From Syntrophorhabdus sp. PtaB.Bin047 (GTDB taxonomy: Bacteria; Desulfobacterota; Syntrophorhabdia; Syntrophorhabdales; Syntrophorhabdaceae), in contig MVQP01000017.1 of the NCBI GenBank assembly GCA_002067235.1, positions 1 through 41,753 of the forward strand: a stretch of 41,753 nucleotides of DNA. The letters run 5' to 3'. Both the position numbers and the translations under genes were made by a program. The notes beneath the pieces are model-generated. The model was given only the letters and a program-made list of their open reading frames with translations. It was not told the DNA's origin and did no database searches. Below are positions 32,412 through 41,639 of this stretch, one piece after another; the first letter of the stretch is position 1; every line of letters begins with the position of its first letter.

Positions 32412-33392
32412 ATGACTCGTTTGGAAGTCCTCGCGGATTACGGTTTCGCGAAAGACCCCTTCCCGGCCAGGTTCATGGAGACGGCCGATGTCCTGAGGGT
32501 GAGGAAGCTCCTAACCCTCGCAATCAGCTCAAAACGCATGGTGGCGATCGTCGCCGACCGCGGCGCCGGTAAGACGTGGGCAATCGAGCACGTCCTCAAG
32601 GGGATGTCGAACATCGCCCTGGTGCACACGGAGCGCTCATTCAAAGAAAAGATGACCATCGAGAACATCGAGCACGACATCATCCTCACCCTCTCCGACG
32701 AGCCCGTGAAGCGCGCGGCGAACACCCGCAAGCGCCAGCTGAGGAGGATCCTCGGGGAGGCGGCCCAGAGGAAGAACGTCGTCCTCCTTATCGAGGAGGC
32801 TCACCGGCTGCACGGCCAGACCCTGGCGAGCCTGAAGACCCTGCTTGAGATGGAGTGGGCGGGAACGCGGCCGCTCTTTACACCGGTCCTCGTCGGGCAA
32901 TACGATCCCATGCGCAAGCGTGGCGTCGACGAGGTCAGGCTGAGAAGCGATTCGGCGTATATGAAGGGATTGTCGACTGCAGAGGCGAGAGAATACGTGA
33001 ACAGCACGGTGGGCGAGCACTTCGATACAGCCGCGATCGATGCCCTGTCGCGGCTGCCAGCCGCAAGGAACTATCTCGATCTCCAGGAGGCGGTGATAAC
33101 CGTCATGGGGAAGGCTCTCGCCATGGGCCAGTCGAAGGTGACAGCCATCGAGGTCTTGGACTGCCACGGCGGAGGCATGAAGGAGATCCTCCGCTCCGCC
33201 GGCATGTCGGAGAACGACCTCTCCCGCGAGACCGGGATACCGCGCTCAACGCTGGCGCTCGTTATCAACGATTACCAGGGGACCATCAAGGACGAGACAT
33301 ACCGAAAGACCCGCCAGGCGATCACGACGGTCCTTAGAAAGAGGCTTGGCCAGGACGCGCAGGGCGCGGCAGCCGCGACGAGCGGCGCGTAA
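32412..33392 (+). CDS. MuB-like AAA+ ATPase, transposition target activator
   Basis: The 326-residue AAA+ protein has Walker A ADRGAGKT (about 48-55), Walker B VVLLIEEAH (about 118-126) and sensor residues around FTPVLVGQYD. A C-terminal DNA-binding helix-turn-helix is visible in RETGIPRSTLALVINDYQG (about 276-295). It should bind target DNA, stimulate the transposase and give target immunity, like Mu B. The frame opens at 32340, but ATG 32412 has AAGGAGGAG just upstream. Confidence 0.92.
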   Translation: MTRLEVLADYGFAKDPFPARFMETADVLRVRKLLTLAISSKRMVAIVADRGAGKTWAIEHVLKGMSNIALVHTERSFKEKMTIENIEHDIILTLSDEPVKRAANTRKRQLRRILGEAAQRKNVVLLIEEAHRLHGQTLASLKTLLEMEWAGTRPLFTPVLVGQYDPMRKRGVDEVRLRSDSAYMKGLSTAEAREYVNSTVGEHFDTAAIDALSRLPAARNYLDLQEAVITVMGKALAMGQSKVTAIEVLDCHGGGMKEILRSAGMSENDLSRETGIPRSTLALVINDYQGTIKDETYRKTRQAITTVLRKRLGQDAQGAAAATSGA

Positions 33393-33403
33393 GGAGGGGT
33401 GTC

Positions 33404-33649
33404 ATGACAAGAGCTAAGCAGCGTTTGATGGCGCATAAACAGCAAACCGCTACCTGCGGCTATCCCGTGAAAACCGGAAACCCGACCGGAAAGGCCACAA
33501 GATACCCCAACGGCGACGTGTGGTGCCAGCAATACAGTGACCGCATCGACCACGCGGTCTGCATTACCCGCGCCGTGAGACATCCAGAGATGTGCAAGGG
33601 CTGTCCGCTTAACCTGCAAGGAAGGAGAGAACCATGGGAAAGCTTTTGA
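33404..33649 (+). CDS. Small Cys-containing early protein
   Basis: The 81-residue protein has Cys at TCGYP, WCQQY, VCITR, and MCKGCPL; the last two could form a zinc site. AAGGAGG precedes the ATG. It overlaps the next gene by 16 nt. No family is recognised; it is one of several small Cys-rich proteins in this early block. Confidence 0.65.
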   Translation: MTRAKQRLMAHKQQTATCGYPVKTGNPTGKATRYPNGDVWCQQYSDRIDHAVCITRAVRHPEMCKGCPLNLQGRREPWESF

Positions 33650-33852
33650 GTCTCATTATCGGTAAAGAGGAAAAGCCCGTCCAGGCGATTCCCCTCGAAC
33701 ATGCGGCCCTGTGTATAAACTGCGAGACCGTGTTCGACATGACGGAACGCGCCTGCCCGGTCTGCTGCAGCGAGGTATACCTCAATGTCGGGATCGCCTT
33801 TGGTGATGAGGAGACAAGATCTCGGATCCGGCAACTGGCGGTGACAGCATGA
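33634..33852 (+). CDS. Small zinc-ribbon protein
   Basis: The 72-residue protein has a CINC (27-30) and CPVCC (41-45) arrangement consistent with a rubredoxin/zinc-ribbon knuckle. It begins MGKLLSLIIGKEEKP. GGAAGGAGAG lies upstream of the ATG. The stop overlaps the next start (ATGA). Function unknown; nucleic-acid or protein binding is plausible. Confidence 0.65.
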   Translation: MGKLLSLIIGKEEKPVQAIPLEHAALCINCETVFDMTERACPVCCSEVYLNVGIAFGDEETRSRIRQLAVTA

Positions 33853-34025
33853 GGGCCTTTGTGGAATCGTATGAGGACGGCAAGAGCATCATCAAGATCT
33901 GCGGCGATGACGATGAGGTCCTTGAGCGTTTTGAAGTCACCGCCCTCATTCTGGAGAGCCGGGCGCCTGTGTGCTTCAGAACAATCCCGGATGTAACGAT
34001 ACGGTTCGATATAACCAGGAACTGA
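33849..34025 (+). CDS. Small early protein (58 aa)
   Basis: ATG at 33849 overlaps the preceding stop (ATGA); the frame ends at TGA 34023-34025. The product begins MRAFVESYEDGKSIIKICGD and ends VTIRFDITRN, with alternating hydrophobic strands suggesting a small beta fold. No family is recognised. Coupling to the upstream gene supports that it is real. Confidence 0.6.
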   Translation: MRAFVESYEDGKSIIKICGDDDEVLERFEVTALILESRAPVCFRTIPDVTIRFDITRN

Positions 34026-34048
34026 CACATGGATCAAGGAGGTGCAAC

Positions 34049-34156
34049 GTGCCGGCAGAAATTAGTCTACCACTTGGGATAGCGATAATTGTTGCGATGA
34101 TGGCTGCCTTTATCCTGGGCACCTGGATAGGGTTTAAGGCGGGTCAGAAATGTTAG
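34049..34156 (+). CDS. Small single-helix membrane protein (35 aa)
   Basis: The GTG start at 34049 is preceded by AAGGAGG at optimal distance; the frame ends at TAG 34154-34156. The product is a short head (MPAEISLPL), a membrane helix (GIAIIVAMMAAFILGTWIGF) and a basic tail with a terminal Cys (KAGQKC). Its function is unknown. It ends convergently against the minus-strand gene at 34153. Confidence 0.6.
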   Translation: MPAEISLPLGIAIIVAMMAAFILGTWIGFKAGQKC

Positions 34157-34428
34157 AGGTATCTACATCTCTTTCCGGTGTACTCGCACATCCTTTTTGT
34201 GAGGACATTACAGACTACCGAGCTGATCTTCCCGTTTCGGAAGATAAGCTTGGACGTGAAACCCGACTCGTTCTGTCTCATGTTGGCCAGCATTGTCGGA
34301 CACACCGTGTGCGGGTGTTCCGTAATCGTCGGTTGCTGGCTCTTGCCTGCGTAGAAACCGCAACCGAAGCCGGTGCCGAAGGCGGTAACTATGGCCACCA
34401 CAACTGCAAGCGTCGAGGATTCAACCAT
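34153..34428 (-). CDS. Minus-strand membrane-anchored cargo protein
   Basis: The 91-residue protein has an N-terminal helix (TLAVVVAIVTAFGTGFGCGF) followed by a soluble part with four Cys (VCPTM, VVCNV, RMCEY, KRCRYL) that could form disulfides if exported or a metal site. There is no Shine-Dalgarno box. A TATAGT -10 element (34440-34435, minus strand) ends 6 nt before the ATG, so the mRNA may be leaderless, though the -35 region is poor. Its orientation against the early operon suggests expression in the lysogen. No family is recognised. Confidence 0.6.
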   Translation of the reverse strand: MVESSTLAVVVAIVTAFGTGFGCGFYAGKSQQPTITEHPHTVCPTMLANMRQNESGFTSKLIFRNGKISSVVCNVLTKRMCEYTGKRCRYL

Positions 34429-34486
34429 GAAAGCACTATATCACAGCCAATTGCGGCGAAAAAGAAAAATTGAAGGGGAGGACCCC

Positions 34487-34696
34487 ATGGTAACAAACGA
34501 CCCGATAGCAATAACAGTCCGTTACGCTGCCGGCGCCTATATAGCCAGGTGTTATGGCAAGAGTGCATCCCGTACCTCATGCGCGAAGGACGCCGCAGAG
34601 GCGGTGGCCGAAAAGCTCTTCGGCAACAAGCCTCATGTTGTGGTTCGCGTGGACGGGGACAGGATCTGGAAGATCGTGGAACAAACCAACGAGTAA
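34487..34696 (+). CDS. Small early protein (69 aa)
   Basis: ATG 34487 has GGGGAGG upstream; longer in-frame starts lack a ribosome-binding site. The product begins MVTNDPIAITVRYAAGAYIA and continues CYGKSASRTSCAKDAAEAVA, with an alpha-beta pattern and no named domain that I recognise. The gam gene follows after 11 nt. Confidence 0.65.
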   Translation: MVTNDPIAITVRYAAGAYIARCYGKSASRTSCAKDAAEAVAEKLFGNKPHVVVRVDGDRIWKIVEQTNE

Positions 34697-34707
34697 GGAG
34701 GAGATAT

Positions 34708-35208
34708 ATGGCAAAGATCATCAAGACATCAGATTACACGGACTGGAACGACGTTGACGGTGCCCTGAGACGCATGGGCGAGCTTGACGTCAAGCTCCAG
34801 AAGCTCGAAGGCGAGATGACCCTCAAGATCAATGAGATCAAGGCAGAGTATGATGTGAAGGCTGAGGGGCTGAAAGCGGAGCGCAAGGCCATCGAGGAAA
34901 ACATCACCCTCTTCGCCGAGTCCAGGAAACAGGAATTCGCGAAGGTCAGGTCGAAGGACCTCACCTTCGGCGTCGTCGCCTACCGGGTGGTGACGAAGGT
35001 GGTCCTGAAAAACAAGGCGGCAACGGTGGCAGCCCTCAAAGCCCTTGGGCTCGTGCAGTATCTCCGGATCATCGAGGAACCCGATAAAGAAGCCATGAGC
35101 GGTCTTGACGCAACGACCCTTGCCAAAGTCGGCACCACTTTGAAGACCGAGGACAAGCTCCGCATCGAACCGAACATGGAGAAGATAAAGGAGAAGGACG
35201 CTGCATGA
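34708..35208 (+). CDS. gam: Mu Gam-like host-nuclease inhibitor
   Basis: The 166-residue protein matches the Gam family: an N-terminal long helix (DVDGALRRMGELDVKLQKLE), the ERKAIEENITLFAES segment, the beta segment RSKDLTFGVVAYR and the C-terminal KLRIEPN. Gam binds DNA ends and protects linear or transposing phage DNA against RecBCD-type exonucleases; it is a prokaryotic relative of Ku. GGAGGAG precedes the ATG. Its stop codon (35206-35208) directly abuts a type II hammerhead ribozyme. Confidence 0.88.
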   Translation: MAKIIKTSDYTDWNDVDGALRRMGELDVKLQKLEGEMTLKINEIKAEYDVKAEGLKAERKAIEENITLFAESRKQEFAKVRSKDLTFGVVAYRVVTKVVLKNKAATVAALKALGLVQYLRIIEEPDKEAMSGLDATTLAKVGTTLKTEDKLRIEPNMEKIKEKDAA

Positions 35209-35272
35209 GGCCGAAACCATTTTCGTGACACCGCGAAAATGGTCCGTCGGTAATGCCGGTGCTGAGGAGGCC
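35209..35272 (+). ncRNA. Type II hammerhead ribozyme, copy 1
   Basis: Reading 5' to 3': stem II strand GGCC (35209-35212), core GAAA (35213-35216), stem III ACCATTTTCG (35216-35225) pairing perfectly with CGAAAATGGT (35234-35243), cleavage triplet GUC with cleavage after C35244, stem I CGUCGG (35245-35250)/CCGGUG (35256-35261) with loop UAAUG, core CUGAGGA (35262-35268), stem II strand GGCC (35269-35272). All invariant core bases are present, and the A-U pair closes stem III. The open stem II makes it type II. AGGAGG (35265-35270), the best ribosome-binding site for the ATG at 35282, lies inside the core and stem II. It lies between gam and the next gene. Confidence 0.93.
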
Positions 35273-35281
35273 AGGACGAGA

Positions 35282-35800
35282 ATGAATAAGGACTATATCA
35301 TGGACGGTAACCGGATCGCGGACTGCAAGGAGAACGTGGCCAGGATGTCCGTATGGGAGCTCATAAGGTTTCGTCTTCCTCGGGATGTTGACATGGCTGG
35401 TGTCCTCCGCGCGCTCCTGGATCTCGTCGAACCCGTATGGTTCCTGATGGTCCGGACCCTGGGGCTGATGGTCTTCCCACTGTTACTTGTCCTCTTGCCG
35501 TTCATCGCTGATAAGGAGATACGTCTCGCCCGGCGGTTTGTTGCCAGGATGGAGGCTGAAAAGACGGGGAGTGGCTCCATAGAGGTGCACCGCACGAATT
35601 TCGAGAGGTTCAAGGGTCGGAGGTTCAAGTGCTGGGCCTACAACGTTCTCGTGGACAGTCTCCCCCTGCATCAACTCGTTGGAATCCCTTCCTTTGATTA
35701 CGCGCAGCAGGACCGCCAGACCGGTGACATGGTGTTCTACAGGCTGAAAAAGGATAATACGGAGGTCTCAGATGAAGTCGAAAAGCCGGAAGAGACGTGA
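35282..35800 (+). CDS. Membrane-associated early protein downstream of ribozyme 1
   Basis: The 172-residue protein starts at ATG 35282, 9 nt after the hammerhead. It has a central hydrophobic hairpin (VWFLMVRTLGLMVFPLLLVL, about 59-78) and a basic helix (RLARRFVARMEAEK), suggesting a membrane-bound protein with a cytoplasmic C-terminal domain. I recognise no family. It overlaps the next gene by 29 nt. Confidence 0.65.
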   Translation: MNKDYIMDGNRIADCKENVARMSVWELIRFRLPRDVDMAGVLRALLDLVEPVWFLMVRTLGLMVFPLLLVLLPFIADKEIRLARRFVARMEAEKTGSGSIEVHRTNFERFKGRRFKCWAYNVLVDSLPLHQLVGIPSFDYAQQDRQTGDMVFYRLKKDNTEVSDEVEKPEET

Positions 35801-36374
35801 TCCTGCGGAGTTATTGAACATGTTCAAGAAACTCTGCCCGACCAAAGACAACAGCGCTGAATCCGCGATGGTGCCCGAGCTCTATAGACCGTCCTGCGGT
35901 ACCGAAGGAATGGATTTCGAAGCCGAGTTTTGTGATAAGTGCGAAAGGAACAGGGAATTTTGGGAACATTACGACCGGGACGATATAAGGCCGGAATTGC
36001 TCTGCCCAATAAACGACAAGGCTCTTTCCGGAAATTACGTGCCGCAATGGATCATCAGGAACGGCAAGCCGTGCTGTACGGAATTCAGGACACAACATAC
36101 AAAACCGCAAGGTGCCGTAACGAAAGGAGCGAACAGTGAAGGGCGTAATCGAACCGAAATATCGATGGAGGATGTCGCGGTAAGGCTGAGATTGCTCAGA
36201 GGAAAGAACGCCCAAGCCTCTGTAGCTTCTGGGCTTGGCATAACCACGCGGGCATATCAATATCTCGAACACGCTAAGAGACTGCCGTCTGTACCCATCC
36301 TGGTAAAAATAGCGGCTACATATGGTGTCTCTATTGATCGGCTCCTTAATGGAACCAAGACAGACCGGGGGTGA
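35772..36374 (+). CDS. XRE-family regulator with N-terminal Cys cluster
   Basis: The 200-residue protein has an N-terminal half with scattered Cys (FCDKCERNREF, LLCPIND, PCCTEF) that may form a zinc-binding domain, and a C-terminal XRE helix-turn-helix (RLRLLRGKNAQASVASGLGI, about 136-155, then YGVSIDRLLNG). A domain order with the DNA-binding domain last is unusual for XRE proteins. GGAGG lies 7 nt before the ATG. It is probably a regulator of early or middle phage expression. Confidence 0.72.
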   Translation: MKSKSRKRRDPAELLNMFKKLCPTKDNSAESAMVPELYRPSCGTEGMDFEAEFCDKCERNREFWEHYDRDDIRPELLCPINDKALSGNYVPQWIIRNGKPCCTEFRTQHTKPQGAVTKGANSEGRNRTEISMEDVAVRLRLLRGKNAQASVASGLGITTRAYQYLEHAKRLPSVPILVKIAATYGVSIDRLLNGTKTDRG

Positions 36375-36378
36375 GAGT

Positions 36379-36546
36379 ATGAACTCAAAGGGTATCGAGA
36401 TATCGGTATACGATAATCGCAGTATCCTATTCCTCATCCCTTCTATCCATCTCGACCTTAGTAGCGGGATCTTCGCCGTCACGTTCTCCTGGATATTCTG
36501 GAGCCTGGAGATCGCCATAAAGGAGGTGGCTGATGGCAATCCTTAA
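36379..36546 (+). CDS. Small early protein (55 aa)
   Basis: ATG 36379 has GGGGGTGAG upstream. The product (MNSKGIEISVYDNRSILFLI..., 55 residues) has a moderately hydrophobic middle (SSGIFAVTFSWIFWSLEIAI). It may be a small membrane or phage-specific protein. The function is unknown. Confidence 0.55.
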   Translation: MNSKGIEISVYDNRSILFLIPSIHLDLSSGIFAVTFSWIFWSLEIAIKEVADGNP

Positions 36547-36577
36547 CAAAGAAACTCAGGAGGGGGATTTCAAATGA
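36533..36577 (+). CDS. Possible 14-aa coupling peptide
   Basis: ATG 36533 has AAGGAGG 5 nt upstream. The 14-codon frame (MAILNKETQEGDFK) ends in ATGA shared with the start of the next gene at 36574. It is probably a translational coupling leader rather than a functional protein. Confidence 0.35.
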   Translation: MAILNKETQEGDFK

Positions 36578-36999
36578 GCAGACAAAATCAGAAGAAGCGC
36601 GACCCTGTAAAGCTGATACCGGTTGATGCAGCCAAGCGGATCGCCGAGGAGTACGCCCAGGATCAGGTTATCGTCTGCACCTTTGAGAGCACCACCAACC
36701 GGGTCCACGTGGTGACCTATGGCAAACGCATCGAAGACGCCGAGAACGCAGCCAAGGGCGGTGATTTCGTGAAGAAGGCCCTGGGGTGGCCCGACAGGCT
36801 CTGCAACAGCACACCTCCGAGAGTCCAGGCTCTTGGCGACGCCCTGAAAGAGGCGGTAAAGCTAATAGAGGGATGGCATAGCATGAGGGAGCAGCGTTTG
36901 CCCGAACACAAGGAGCGCGAGGCATGGAGGATTTACTACGATCACGCCCCAGAGATGAAACCGATCCGAGAGGCCCTCGAGCTTCTCTCGGGAGGATAG
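36574..36999 (+). CDS. Early protein of unknown function
   Basis: The 141-residue protein has an N-terminal alpha/beta part (DAAKRIAEEYAQDQVIVCTF, then VHVVTYGKRIEDAENAA) that resembles small domains found in many mobile elements, and a helical C-terminal half. GGAGGGG precedes the ATG. The function is unknown; its position between regulator genes suggests an early role. Confidence 0.65.
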   Translation: MSRQNQKKRDPVKLIPVDAAKRIAEEYAQDQVIVCTFESTTNRVHVVTYGKRIEDAENAAKGGDFVKKALGWPDRLCNSTPPRVQALGDALKEAVKLIEGWHSMREQRLPEHKEREAWRIYYDHAPEMKPIREALELLSGG

Positions 37000-37003
37000 C
37001 ACA

Positions 37004-37156
37004 ATGACATGCCCTACGTGTAAAGAACAAGTAGCAATAACAGCGTTCCCGGCGGTCCATGATGAGGAACTGGTGGATGTCAAGTTAGAGTGCCCCGCCT
37101 GCGGTTGGTCGGCCTATGCCTTTCTTGACATCGACAGTTTCGTGCGCGTCGAATAG
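37004..37156 (+). CDS. Small zinc-ribbon protein (50 aa)
   Basis: ATG 37004 has GGAGG 9 nt upstream, and the frame ends at TAG 37154-37156. CPTC (3-6) and CPAC (30-33) form a classical four-Cys zinc ribbon with about 23 residues between knuckles. Its stop codon lies 7 nt before hammerhead copy 2. The likely role is nucleic-acid or protein binding. Confidence 0.7.
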   Translation: MTCPTCKEQVAITAFPAVHDEELVDVKLECPACGWSAYAFLDIDSFVRVE

Positions 37157-37163
37157 GGAGCGA

Positions 37164-37227
37164 GGCCGAAACCATCTTCGGGACACCAGGAAGATGGTCT
37201 GCCGGTAATGCCGCCGCTGAGGAGGCC
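37164..37227 (+). ncRNA. Type II hammerhead ribozyme, copy 2
   Basis: Stem II GGCC (37164-37167), GAAA (37168-37171), stem III ACCATCTTC (37171-37179) pairing with GAAGATGGT (37190-37198), cleavage triplet GUC with cleavage after C37199, stem I UGCCGG (37200-37205)/CCGCCG (37211-37216) with loop UAAUG and one C-C mismatch, core CUGAGGA (37217-37223), stem II GGCC (37224-37227). Compared with copy 1 the stem III pair T-A has become C-G, a compensatory change; most other positions are kept. AGGAGG (37220-37225) is again the ribosome-binding site, 10 nt before ATG 37236. Confidence 0.88.
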
Positions 37228-37235
37228 AGGAAACG

Positions 37236-37451
37236 ATGGACAAGACAAAGAATATGAAAATCCCAAAATTCCCGAACTGCGATGTCAGTCTGACGCACTC
37301 AGAGCAATACGGTCTCACCACGGGCTTTGACGCGATCATCTATCGCGTCATGCTGTTCCCGACAGAGAAGAAACGGCCGAACAAGGAGCAGATCGACAAG
37401 ATGGCGTGCTCACTTATAGACGCCGCCTGCAATGCTATGGAGACAGAATAA
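37236..37451 (+). CDS. Small early protein downstream of ribozyme 2
   Basis: The 71-residue protein starts 8 nt after the hammerhead. The product (MDKTKNMKIPKFPNCDVSL...) has no named domain; the C-terminal helix KEQIDKMACSLIDAACNAME is likely amphipathic. It joins the next gene by a TAATG overlap. The function is unknown. Confidence 0.65.
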   Translation: MDKTKNMKIPKFPNCDVSLTHSEQYGLTTGFDAIIYRVMLFPTEKKRPNKEQIDKMACSLIDAACNAMETE

Positions 37452-37727
37452 TGACAGATGACCGTAACCGCCGTCACTCGCAATGCGGCAGGGATCTCAC
37501 AAAATCCTCCAGAACTCTCCTTGCCGGAGGAGAGCAATTGCGGGATCCGGCAATAACCGATCTCGGGAGTGTATCCATCATGAATGACGACACCTGCCAC
37601 GTGGAACTGACAACGGACTGCTGGACCTGCGGAAAACCCATGACACGCTTCGCCCAGGATTCCTGGTACTGGTACTACCGGTGCGAGGCCTGCGGCGTGG
37701 AGCGTATGTATCCGAAGGAGAAAAACG

Positions 37728-37750
<23 letters not shown>
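37451..37750 (+). CDS. Small zinc-ribbon protein
   Basis: The 99-residue frame is coupled to the previous gene. The N-terminal third is low in structure; an internal ATG at 37580 could be the true start of a 56-residue zinc ribbon. CWTC (57-60) and CEAC (78-81) form the four-Cys site, with aromatic residues DSWYWYYR between. It overlaps the next zinc-ribbon gene by 23 nt. Confidence 0.6.
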
Positions 37751-37872
<122 letters not shown>

Positions 37873-37895
<23 letters not shown>

Positions 37896-38235
37896 TTTTG
37901 ACAGACCCGCCCTGACGGAGGAGCAAGAGCTGATCTTCAACCTGCTCCGCAAGGGCAGGAAGAACGCGATCCGCGAGAAGACCCTTTCTGCCATGACGGG
38001 GATCTCCGGCGTGCGGGTCCGGCAGATCATCAAGCACCTCACCGAGCATCACGGCATCCTGGTGGTTTCCTCCACGGCAAATCCTCCCGGGTTCTACTTT
38101 CCGGAGACCAGGGAGGAATACCGGGCAGGCGTCGCGCAGTATGTGAACAGGATCCGGTCTCTGGCGGGCCGCCTGAGGGCAATGGACCGCGAGGCCTACG
38201 AATCGTTATTCGGTCAGGAGAGGCTGGCAATATAA
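37873..38235 (+). CDS. Winged-helix DNA-binding protein
   Basis: The 120-residue protein has an N-terminal winged helix (TEEQELIFNLLRKG, then SAMTGISGVRVRQIIKHLTE with recognition helix near 50-60, and a wing GILVVSSTANPPGFYFP). The C-terminal part is helical. Translation depends on the GA tract as leader. It is probably a phage regulator. Confidence 0.75.
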
Positions 38236-38264
38236 AACCTAATCTTTTAAGGAGGGTGTTACGT

Positions 38265-38822
38265 ATGGAGACAATCAAGGTCAGAATCGAAGGAACGGCA
38301 CCGCTGATGCAGCACCGGTATGTGTTCAAGGATGAACTGGCGCAGAAGACCCAAAAGAAGACGGGTGCCAAGGATTACAGCGACGAGTGGAAAACGGGGC
38401 TCCACTGGGACGATGTGCTCGGAGTCTTTGAGCCTGCAAGTCACATCGAGGGCGCACTCATCAAGGCGGCGGTCAACTTCCAGATAACAGGCAAGGGCAA
38501 GAAAACGTATAAGGATCTCTTCAAGAGCGCGGTCTTTGTCACTCCGGACTATATTCCCCACGGGCTGAAAGACTCTCCGGAAAAGCTCCTGGAATCGGGG
38601 AAACTGACCGTGGACAAGAGGCTTGTGAGGGTCAACAACTCGGGCGTTGAGAGGATGCGTCCCATGCTCAGAAACTGGTCCCTGGAATTTGACATCGAGG
38701 TGCATGATCCCCAGATCCCCCGGGAGGTGGTGAAGGAGGTCCTGGACCTTGCAGGTAAACAGTACGGCATCGGGGATTTCAGGCCGAGGTACGGAAGATT
38801 TATGGTGACGCGGTTTGAATAG
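38265..38822 (+). CDS. Conserved phage protein, unknown function
   Basis: The 185-residue protein starts METIKVRIEGTAPLMQHRYV. ATG 38265 has AAGGAGG 9 nt upstream; an in-frame GTG at 38256 is less likely. Proteins with the opening I-G-T-x-P-L-M-x-H occur in many phages without known function. The C-terminal segment GIGDFRPRYGRFMVTRFE is well defined. An RNA-binding RAMP-like fold is conceivable from the strand pattern, but I cannot support it further. Confidence 0.65.
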   Translation: METIKVRIEGTAPLMQHRYVFKDELAQKTQKKTGAKDYSDEWKTGLHWDDVLGVFEPASHIEGALIKAAVNFQITGKGKKTYKDLFKSAVFVTPDYIPHGLKDSPEKLLESGKLTVDKRLVRVNNSGVERMRPMLRNWSLEFDIEVHDPQIPREVVKEVLDLAGKQYGIGDFRPRYGRFMVTRFE

Positions 38823-39085
38823 GGCAAGGCATGGTTTGGCTTGGTAAGGCCTGGCGCGCTCGGGCCTGGCACGATCGGGCGAGGTTAGGTTAGGCAAGGC
38901 GAAACACCCCTTCGGGGGTGTCACCGGATGATGTCCGGTCTGATGAGCCTCAAGGCAAGGCGGGCTGTGGCCGGGTTACGGTTAGGCGCGATCGGCCGAG
39001 GTTAGGCGGGCTCAGGTGCGGCTCGGCAAATGCTGGCATGGCGAGGCGAGTTTTGGCAAGGCAAGGTCTGGCAGGGCAGGGATTA
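38823..39085 (+). repeat. GGYNN pentanucleotide-periodic repeat field
   Basis: For about 210 nt the sequence can be cut into five-base words beginning GG(C/T): GGCAA, GGCAT, GGTTT, GGCTT, GGTAA, GGTTA, GGCGA and so on. The series is interrupted by hammerhead copy 3 (38897-38950) and resumes afterwards. No gene is present in this 280-nt gap. In RNA this gives a G-pair every five bases. Confidence 0.85.
38897..38950 (+). ncRNA. Type II hammerhead ribozyme, copy 3
   Basis: Stem II AGGC (38897-38900), GAAA (38901-38904), stem III ACACCCC (38904-38910) capped by a UUCG tetraloop and GGGGTGT (38915-38921), GUC with cleavage after C38922, stem I ACCGG (38923-38927)/CCGGT (38935-38939) with a 7-nt loop, core CUGAUGA (38940-38946), stem II GCCT (38947-38950). 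All stems are perfect, and the core is the classical CUGAUGA version. It sits 74 nt after the previous gene and 152 nt before the Gp16-like gene, inside the GGYNN repeat field. Confidence 0.95.
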
Positions 39086-39102
39086 TTTCCTTGGGAGGTT
39101 TT

Positions 39103-39585
39103 ATGAACGAGGCCGTCAACCGAAAGCAACTGCAGATAATTCATGTTGCCCTCAAACAACTTAGACTTGATGACGCGACCTATCGGGCCATGCTGAAAAA
39201 CCGCTACAATGTGGAATCCAGTAAGAACCTCTCTTACCGGGAAGCAAGCGAGTTGATAGATTACTTCAAAGGGCTCGGCTTCCGGCTGAAGACGAAGCGG
39301 ACCCCGCCCCAGAATCCCTGCTGGCCCTGCGCTCCCAGGACGCCCGGCATGCCCCTTCCCGAGAACGTCGTCGTCCTCGCGAGCCCCGGCCAGCTCCGGA
39401 TGATCGAGCACCTTGCCGCAGATATCAAGTGGCACCACTGGGACGGGTACCGTCGCTGGCTGAAGAAGTACTTCAAGGTCGACCAGGTCCGTACATCTCC
39501 CGACGCCTCCGCCGTCATCGAGGCGCTGAAAAACATGTGGAAGGACCAGAACGGCTGCGCCTGCAGGAGGGCAAAGAATGGCTGA
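39103..39585 (+). CDS. Mu Gp16/GemA-like regulatory protein
   Basis: The 160-residue protein has the Gp16/GemA (DUF1018) pattern: NRKQLQIIHVALKQLRLDDA, then YRAMLKNRYNVESSKNLSYR with the conserved ELIDYFKGLGF helix, and a C-terminal half with HHWDGYRRWLKKYFKVDQVR. In Mu, the gemA region lies just before mor and affects host gene expression. ATG 39103 has GGGAGG upstream. It overlaps mor by 8 nt. Confidence 0.85.
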   Translation: MNEAVNRKQLQIIHVALKQLRLDDATYRAMLKNRYNVESSKNLSYREASELIDYFKGLGFRLKTKRTPPQNPCWPCAPRTPGMPLPENVVVLASPGQLRMIEHLAADIKWHHWDGYRRWLKKYFKVDQVRTSPDASAVIEALKNMWKDQNGCACRRAKNG

Positions 39586-39913
39586 TGATCCTATCCTGAG
39601 GCGCCTGACCGGTGACTTTCGCCGTCTCGCTGAGATCGTGGGAGTAGAGAACGCGCTGCGGGTTTCCCAGGAGTTCGGAGGGCTGTGGATCTCCATCCCG
39701 AAGCTTGACGCCCTCAGGCGGGAAAGTCGCGACGCCGAGATCAGGGGGGAATACGACAAGGCGGTGGACAACAAGACGGACGTGGTTCGAACCCTCGCCC
39801 GCAAATACAATTTGACCGCCCGACAGATTTACAATATATTGGGTATACAGCCGGAGGGAGATCCAGATCTCGTTCTTCCCCTTTTTTTCAATGAAACTCC
39901 TCCAGTGAAATAG
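39578..39913 (+). CDS. Mor-like middle transcription activator
   Basis: The 111-residue protein matches the Mor/C family: an N-terminal dimerisation region (LAEIVGVENALRVSQEFGGLWISIP) and a C-terminal helix-turn-helix (VVRTLARKYNLTARQIYNIL, about 69-88). It should activate the middle promoter immediately downstream. The Gly-Gly between helix and strand, as in Mu Mor, is present (EFGG). It is the last gene of the early operon. Confidence 0.88.
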   Translation: MADDPILRRLTGDFRRLAEIVGVENALRVSQEFGGLWISIPKLDALRRESRDAEIRGEYDKAVDNKTDVVRTLARKYNLTARQIYNILGIQPEGDPDLVLPLFFNETPPVK

Positions 39914-41147: not shown

Positions 41148-41639
41148 GTGATCTGGCATGTCATCATCTTTGCGGTCGGACTTATCTTCGGGGTTTTCCT
41201 CGGGATCCTCGTCGCAAAGCGGAACCCCCGCTTCGTTAAGTGTTGCAACGCCCTCTATCTGAAGCTCCGCGGCAAGGCCGCCACAACGGCGGGGGAGATC
41301 CTGGACCGTACCGGTGATGAGAAAGGCAGCACCTCTGTATCACCGGTATCCGCGAATGCCCTGATGAAGTACCTCCTCAGATTCGGCATTCCCCTTGCCG
41401 CCGCCATAGTCCTCACCTGGTCCCTCAAACCAAATATGGTTGAGACGATGCTGTACAAGTGCTGCCTGATCTTCACAGCGTACGCCCTGGCAGAACTGAT
41501 ATGGGTCATCGGGTACAAACGGACGTTCGACAGGAAAGAGAAGGAGGGAAAGATCACCGATGTTGGCAGGATTGCGATACTTGTTTTTCGTGGTCTGCTT
41601 TTTGGCGCTGTCATTGTCGGTCTTACCCAGGGACTGTGA
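41148..41639 (+). CDS. Holin-like membrane protein
   Basis: The 163-residue protein has four hydrophobic segments (starting near residues 3, 79, 103 and 143) with a polar domain after the first. The GTG at 41148 has GGAGG 5 nt upstream; an in-frame GTG at 41142 overlaps that site. Its location between an endolysin and a transglycosylase supports a holin or a related lysis role. It is larger than most holins, so the call is by context. Confidence 0.6.
   Translation: MIWHVIIFAVGLIFGVFLGILVAKRNPRFVKCCNALYLKLRGKAATTAGEILDRTGDEKGSTSVSPVSANALMKYLLRFGIPLAAAIVLTWSLKPNMVETMLYKCCLIFTAYALAELIWVIGYKRTFDRKEKEGKITDVGRIAILVFRGLLFGAVIVGLTQGL

Follow-up and report, generated by a model that had tools for sequence, protein, structure and literature searches.

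A compact type II hammerhead ribozyme predicted behind a Mu-like gam gene, with the putative Shine-Dalgarno sequence of the next gene in its core

The window, that is, the whole stretch of 41,753 nucleotides of contig MVQP01000017.1 of Syntrophorhabdus sp. PtaB.Bin047 analysed here, probably (we put the chance at about 0.7) carries at positions 35209-35272 of the + strand a type II hammerhead ribozyme that is predicted to cut after C35244 and to supply the following gene with a ribosome-binding site from its core. We read this element as one of a compact subclass of the known phage type II hammerheads, which would split a polycistronic mRNA and offer a Shine-Dalgarno sequence made of active-site bases to the gene that follows.

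Results

Architecture of the element after gam

The motif occupies 64 bases in the order GGCC, GAAA, stem III, GUC, stem I, CUGAGGA and GGCC, and the parts of this first copy (copy 1) are given below.

35209-35272, + strand: type II hammerhead ribozyme, compact N7=G form, copy 1 (scanner score 28; model R2 51.1 bits, E=7.6e-13)
35209-35212, + strand: GGCC, 5' strand (sequence)
35213-35215, + strand: core GAA (sequence)
35216-35227/35232-35243, + strand: stem III (sequence)
35244, + strand: C17 (sequence)
35244-35245, + strand: predicted cleavage junction after C17 (GUC triplet adjoining U16.1)
35245-35250/35256-35261, + strand: stem I (sequence)
35262-35268, + strand: core CUGAGGA (sequence)
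35269-35272, + strand: GGCC, 3' strand (sequence)
35265-35270, + strand: predicted Shine-Dalgarno AGGAGG, 11 nt before ATG 35282
35273-35276, + strand: AGGA outside the core, possible alternative ribosome-binding site, 5 nt before ATG 35282

All invariant type II elements listed by the sequence-only reading are present in order, and every position matches the sequence. The core is composed of CUGAGGA, GAAA, the pair A35216-U35243 (A15.1-U16.1) and C35244 at position 17 (H), and the three stems have 4, 12 and 6 pairs, stems I and III being closed by loops and stem II being open. Stem III had been described as a perfect 10-bp stem, of which the ten Watson-Crick pairs stand, but the full stem counts 12 by adding a U-G and a G-C pair. 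The six pairs of stem I include a tandem G-U/U-G wobble in mid-stem, and by inspection no four-base Watson-Crick match was found between loop I (UAAUG) and the tail AGGACGAGA.

Candidates were scored by a scanner for the core and the three stems, made for type II, with type I and III architectures outside its scope. There are three ribozymes on the + strand of the window, with scores of 28 (35209), 22 (37164) and 24 (38897), where the earlier reading had named one, and the sole other scanner row on either strand of the window had a score of 8. The assignment of copy 1 to the type II hammerhead structural class is supported by its sequence, and it is filed there and not under RF02276, whose gathering value of 37 bits is a threshold of detection; its self-cleavage is likely.

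The Mu-like prophage

Profile matches to Pfam and PHROG show that the early part of a Mu-like prophage begins at about 28 kb and runs to the end of the window, with an accessory block between gam and gemA.

30761: transposase gene (PHROG transposase, 2.1e-22)
32415: transposition ATPase gene (PHROG DNA transposition protein, 1e-17)
34708-35208, + strand: gam, Mu Gam-like protein of 166 aa (Pfam PF07352, E=1e-31; PHROG 491, E=4.8e-34)
35206-35208, + strand: gam stop codon TGA, abutting copy 1 (sequence)
35282-35800, + strand: gene after copy 1, 172 aa, with its ATG at 35282
37236-37451, + strand: gene after copy 2, 71 aa, whose relative in G000:C187 follows a copy with changed G12
39103-39585, + strand: gemA-like gene (Pfam PF06252, E=1.5e-17)
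40689: endolysin-like gene (Pfam/PHROG annotation of the window)

The region is a Mu-like prophage, with Gam, GemA, the transposase and its ATPase present in order; the match to Pfam rve was below its cut-off. The scan gave no promoter-like or terminator-like matches on the + strand from 32,907 to 39,811, which fits one transcript as far as such scans, which are not functional evidence, can indicate. The 172-aa product of the gene at 35282 had no family match in Pfam, PHROG or NCBIfam; its starting Met is shared by four homologs, one of which is 99% identical and may be from the same organism. The small gene at 37439-37750 encodes a product with a weak likeness to the zinc ribbon of the IF-2 beta subunit (E=1e-4, below cut-off), and relatives of part of it are located directly behind a hammerhead in loci L003, L355 and L356.

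The predicted Shine-Dalgarno sequence and the start codon

The placing of the next gene's AGGAGG inside the core is borne out by its position and by its recurrence elsewhere, so it is not a one-off. In copy 1 its six bases are core positions A6, G7, G8 and A9 followed by the first two positions of the stem II strand GGCC. The starts lie 13 and 12 nt past A9 in copies 1 and 2, with the AGGAGG 11 and 10 nt ahead of them, and both copies have the features of the proposed subclass, i.e., N7=G, a core AGGAGG and a start within 14 nt of A9.

Viral-contig scans for N7=G and for N7=A/C/T skeletons, together with other loci and the window, yielded 187 distinct ribozymes with a score of at least 19, rows below 19 and identical rows being excluded from all counts. 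A start was defined as ATG or GTG within 60 nt opening a reading frame that had at least 35 aa or ran off the 400-nt piece, a rule that drops short frames and scores L511 (ATG 7 nt after A9) as a miss. Among the matches listed, the start was within 14 nt of A9 in 19/32 N7=G ribozymes vs 14/155 others (p=2e-9), a comparison that pools separate scans, so that the proportions of N7 types in it are meaningless and the fractions within each type valid. After removal of near-duplicates a near start was found in 18/30 vs 13/150 among the matches listed. The comparison was enlarged by three more scans to 351 distinct type II ribozymes from loci other than the window, with L227-L345 and the window-repeating L346, L349 and L350 also excluded, and a near start was again found in 22/36 N7=G vs 29/315 others among the matches listed; the newly fetched loci alone gave 5/6 vs 15/160, likewise among those listed. 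The effect goes with the 17-nt stem I hairpin (19/24 N7=G vs 13/162 others among the matches listed); with other stem I lengths, in N7=G ribozymes longer hairpins, no start-codon effect was seen (3/12 vs 16/153 listed, p=0.15).

The AGGAGG is 2-11 nt from the start in the 19 close N7=G cases, and a separate Shine-Dalgarno-like motif is present in 103/126 other-N7 ribozymes with a farther start, among the matches listed. It could be argued that the ribozyme cuts and the ribosome ignores its core, with initiation from the AGGA past stem II and the AGGAGG being incidental. This AGGA is located 5 nt from the ATG in both window copies, as compared to 11 and 10 nt for the AGGAGG, but between stem II and the start a second motif is absent from 17/19 close N7=G cases, the other two being the window copies, and N7=G and a near start occur together across unrelated loci; we regard initiation from the AGGA as unlikely.

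Among 20 viral records a Gam match was found in two, both with N7=G ribozymes that have no start codon close by, and in 0/17 of the viral records with a near start codon, which may be fragments. Ten upstream genes were tested, one being primase-like and one ATPase-like, and the start-codon effect seems to extend beyond Mu-like phages. The compact subclass, as delimited from sequence by N7=G, mostly a 17-nt stem I hairpin and a putative ribosome-binding AGGAGG in the core just before a start, is recurrent.

Further copies and the state of the core

The two other ribozymes of the window are the following.

37164-37227, + strand: second compact N7=G type II hammerhead, copy 2 (scanner score 22; R2 47.2 bits)
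37220-37225, + strand: AGGAGG of copy 2, before ATG 37236
38897-38954, + strand: third type II hammerhead, ordinary (N7=U) (RF02276 40.5 bits, E=5.4e-05, gathering 37)

Stem I of copy 2 contains a C-C mismatch. The third hammerhead sits in the leader before gemA, the same place as in L003 and L105/L354. The leader around it (38820-39100, 281 nt) is irregular and GGC-rich with 27 GGC, and a similar stretch flanks the ribozyme of L105.

Another prophage copy in the same bacterial genome (G000:C187:2895-2958; L347, L357) has A in place of G12 and keeps the AGGAGG and the ATG, its downstream gene being 88.7% identical. In the accessible text of PMC12192606, G12 acts as general base, with the 2'-OH of G8 as general acid, and the C187 copy is probably catalytically inactive because its general base has been replaced. 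In viral contigs, 17 distinct skeletons of the GGCC form had intact G12 and C3, 14 of them with stems; no GGCC-form skeletons with G12 replaced were found there, and two with C3 replaced were found, neither passing the stem test. By eye, L655 looks like a relative with C3 changed to U.

These data bear on the view that the element is a non-cutting structured spacer with a ribosome-binding site, i.e., a ribozyme relic kept for its hairpins and AGGAGG. The C187 copy, which lost G12 and retained AGGAGG and ATG, and the stem I flaws in copies 1 and 2 speak for such a relic, and like the miss by RF02276 described below they count among the points against our best explanation. The core and the GUC are nevertheless intact in both window copies, and in viral contigs no GGCC-form skeleton with G12 replaced was found and neither of the two with C3 replaced passed the stem test, which makes a non-cutting spacer quite improbable in our judgement.

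Place between genes

The gam stop codon had been said to touch the ribozyme, and indeed the TGA ends at 35208. This arrangement is general: the ribozyme fills the intergenic gap and abuts the upstream stop, the median gap to which was 2 nt in close N7=G cases (stop present in 17/19), 0 nt in other N7=G (13/13) and 1 nt in ribozymes with other N7 (151/155 listed). A Gam protein search retrieved 25 viral loci, and a hammerhead follows the gam stop within about 20 nt in eight of them (L003 and L016-L022, some of which are near-duplicates). L002 has its hammerhead one small gene further from gam, L015 has a degenerate one, and in the remaining 15/25 the scanner found no hammerhead near gam. The Gam proteins of L016-L022 are 30-36% identical, and these loci carry the ordinary kind with CUGAUGA and a Shine-Dalgarno after the tail; since this distant group carries the ordinary kind, the place after gam is shared and the subtype differs.

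In the genus relatives L352 and L353 one upstream gene and the hammerhead are followed by two different downstream genes, and a small downstream gene is preceded by gam in L003 and by the upstream gene of L352/L353 in L356. The flanking genes being shuffled in this way, the ribozymes sit at borders of exchanged cassettes. Four viral contigs (L123, L138, L126 and L151) have four to nine skeleton matches each among the matches listed, and their operons are apparently divided by many type II ribozymes. One could suppose that the ribozymes are recombination joints, i.e., short conserved cassette borders for swapping accessory genes from gam to gemA, as the different downstream genes of L352/L353 and the different upstream genes of L003/L356 would suggest, but neither the intact catalytic bases in viral contigs nor the link of N7=G with a near start is explained in this way. 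As the sole function we consider this very improbable; such a role may exist alongside cutting and ribosome binding.

Detection and chance resemblance

On 18,669 first-order Markov windows searched on both strands, the scanner gave 2 hits with scores of at least 22 and none of at least 24. A second null consisted of at least 119 stretches of genome contigs (L227-L345) sharing only the skeleton GCCGAAA..GUC..CUGAGGAGGC; among the matches listed, stems at score 19 were found in 0/119 of these skeleton-only bacterial stretches, and two reached 15-16. Many of L227-L345 are a recurrent 58-nt stretch of alphaproteobacterial records (GCCGAAA..CTGAGGAGGC), constant in length and stemless, which is probably coding.

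The sequence-only reading had named the lack of a covariance-model hit as a refutation, and with the type II model of Rfam this refutation applies to copy 1, as RF02276 found nothing in 301 bases even at E<=10. The Rfam scan of the whole window at gathering level returned only 38897-38954 (40.5 bits), and copy 2 (37164) scored 15.3 bits, under the gathering value of 37. In 8/8 further loci RF02276 also missed the N7=G ribozyme, the single gathering-level match there being the ordinary second ribozyme of L003. Because RF02276 misses the N7=G ribozymes supplied to it, such ribozymes are probably undercounted. A covariance model (R2) was built from 19 other ribozymes of the compact design, with the window copies and L002 left out and with L003, L048 and L085, prophages with shared genes, included. 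It recovered copy 1 with 51.1 bits and copy 2 with 47.2 bits (E=1.1e-11), and the next rows in the window had E=0.0085 and 1 and were only 19 and 12 bases long. The former, at 41370-41388 on the - strand, has CCGAA beside CUGAGGAGG and lacks stems I and III, so it was rejected as spurious.

Changes on both sides occurred in 10/14 pairs of 19 relatives (shuffled mean 5.6), counts that are weaker than they look because the rows were picked partly by a scanner that requires pairing; the results from the gam loci, the skeleton null and the Markov windows are free of this selection bias. Chance resemblance to a hammerhead, to which the missing RF02276 match of copy 1 would point, is practically negligible in view of both nulls, the covariation, the match to a model that left the window copies out and the presence of three ribozymes in a single operon, all on the same strand.

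A match to Rfam RAGATH-1 at 35197-35248 had 14.2 bits vs a gathering value of 56.3 and was taken as chance. Reading it through the upstream CUGcAUGA as a second core strand was also rejected, as this strand has an extra base and stem II is absent; no strand like CUGcAUGA was seen before the L003 ribozyme. The genus search matched 4/12 genomes at E<=0.1. A phylum-wide search of 395 genomes with model R1, in which strict filters were applied and 14 candidates were scored per genome, so that it says little about absence, gave one positive besides the host genome, G077, in which the scanner shows no hammerhead.

Discussion

Our results point to an element that would act on the mRNA and on translation through the same bases. 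Copy 1 would fold and cut after C35244 during transcription, leaving the gam message with the stem III hairpin at its very 3' end and giving the downstream message a 5'-OH end headed by the stem I hairpin; hairpins at both new mRNA ends are expected because stems I and III are both closed in type II. The uncut folded core and a bound 30S subunit would be mutually exclusive, since pairing with the anti-Shine-Dalgarno would occupy G8 and A9 together with two stem II bases. We tentatively propose, at somewhat less than even odds, that the same bases of these phage hammerheads are both active site (with the 2'-OH of G8 as general acid) and Shine-Dalgarno, so that each transcript makes a one-time choice between ribozyme and ribosome and cutting yields hairpin-capped units that are immediately translatable.

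The interpretation given by the sequence-only reading is supported in part, the competition of folding and cutting with ribosome binding and the parting of gam mRNA from the genes behind it being predictions. The switch part of this proposal is weaker than the cutting part because the folding energies show no release of the Shine-Dalgarno. Secondary-structure folding gave an opening energy for the Shine-Dalgarno of copy 1 of 0.9 kcal/mol before the cut and 0.9 after, and the median of the 19 close cases was 3.47 before and 3.02 kcal/mol after, so release upon cleavage is unsupported by the folding of these 19 cases. The hammerhead fold was the minimum in 10/19; in copy 1 it is 2.2 kcal/mol above the minimum, and when copy 1 was folded with its flanks a different fold was preferred. 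The hammerhead energy of copy 2 counts stem I only to the mismatch and is too weak.

What the analysis adds is the recurrent overlap of a predicted active site with a predicted ribosome-binding site. If the catalytic bases are the ribosome-binding site, the ribozyme is tied to the translation of a particular next gene, and the question is testable because single-base changes can part cutting (G12) from ribosome binding (A6-A9).

By 2011 the known bacterial hammerheads numbered in the hundreds (PMC3088659), and according to the accessible text of that paper three multi-ribozyme prophage regions cut in vitro, one of them also in E. coli. The natural type II hammerheads of Perreault et al. 2011 (PMC3088659; RF02276) have the same core, closed stems I and III and an open stem II as described there, and like those of the window they occur several per prophage operon, between genes. 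Compared with this class, as far as its accessible description goes, copy 1 has N7=G, a 5-nt loop I, a core overlapping the predicted Shine-Dalgarno and no Rfam match. A pseudoknot of at least 4 pairs between loop I and the tail is common but not universal in the class as described in that text, and copy 1 has none of this length. A word check of the main text of PMC3088659 gave no occurrence of translation, Shine, stop codon or ribosom-. The HHphage hammerhead of haloviruses HF1/HF2 reported there shares the phage setting and lies 13 nt before a start codon, and a mapped transcript end is within three nt of its cleavage site. It differs from copy 1 in that it is a core variant of archaeal viruses located at the first gene of a polycistronic transcript, and overlap with a Shine-Dalgarno is unstated in the accessible text (PMC3088659).

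According to PMC10085705, which cites its references 25 and 26 for this, hammerhead and twister ribozymes show enrichment close to one another and close to genes of Mu-like phages, and the available passage on this enrichment names no gene, role or ribosome-binding site; the biological reason for the association of hammerheads with phage genes was still described as unknown in 2023 in the same source (PMC10085705, as available). Among the matches listed from open-licence titles and abstract starts, no natural ribozyme whose core is the ribosome-binding site was found, which is not proof. The nearest likeness in function comes from engineered switches (PMC5052635), in which, according to the available text, the ribozyme sequesters the Shine-Dalgarno and an active ribozyme raises expression in E. 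coli, two twister designs raising it 5-fold and about 100-fold. Those switches, as described there, were designed and hold the Shine-Dalgarno in a stem, whereas the case in the window is natural and has the predicted Shine-Dalgarno in the catalytic core.
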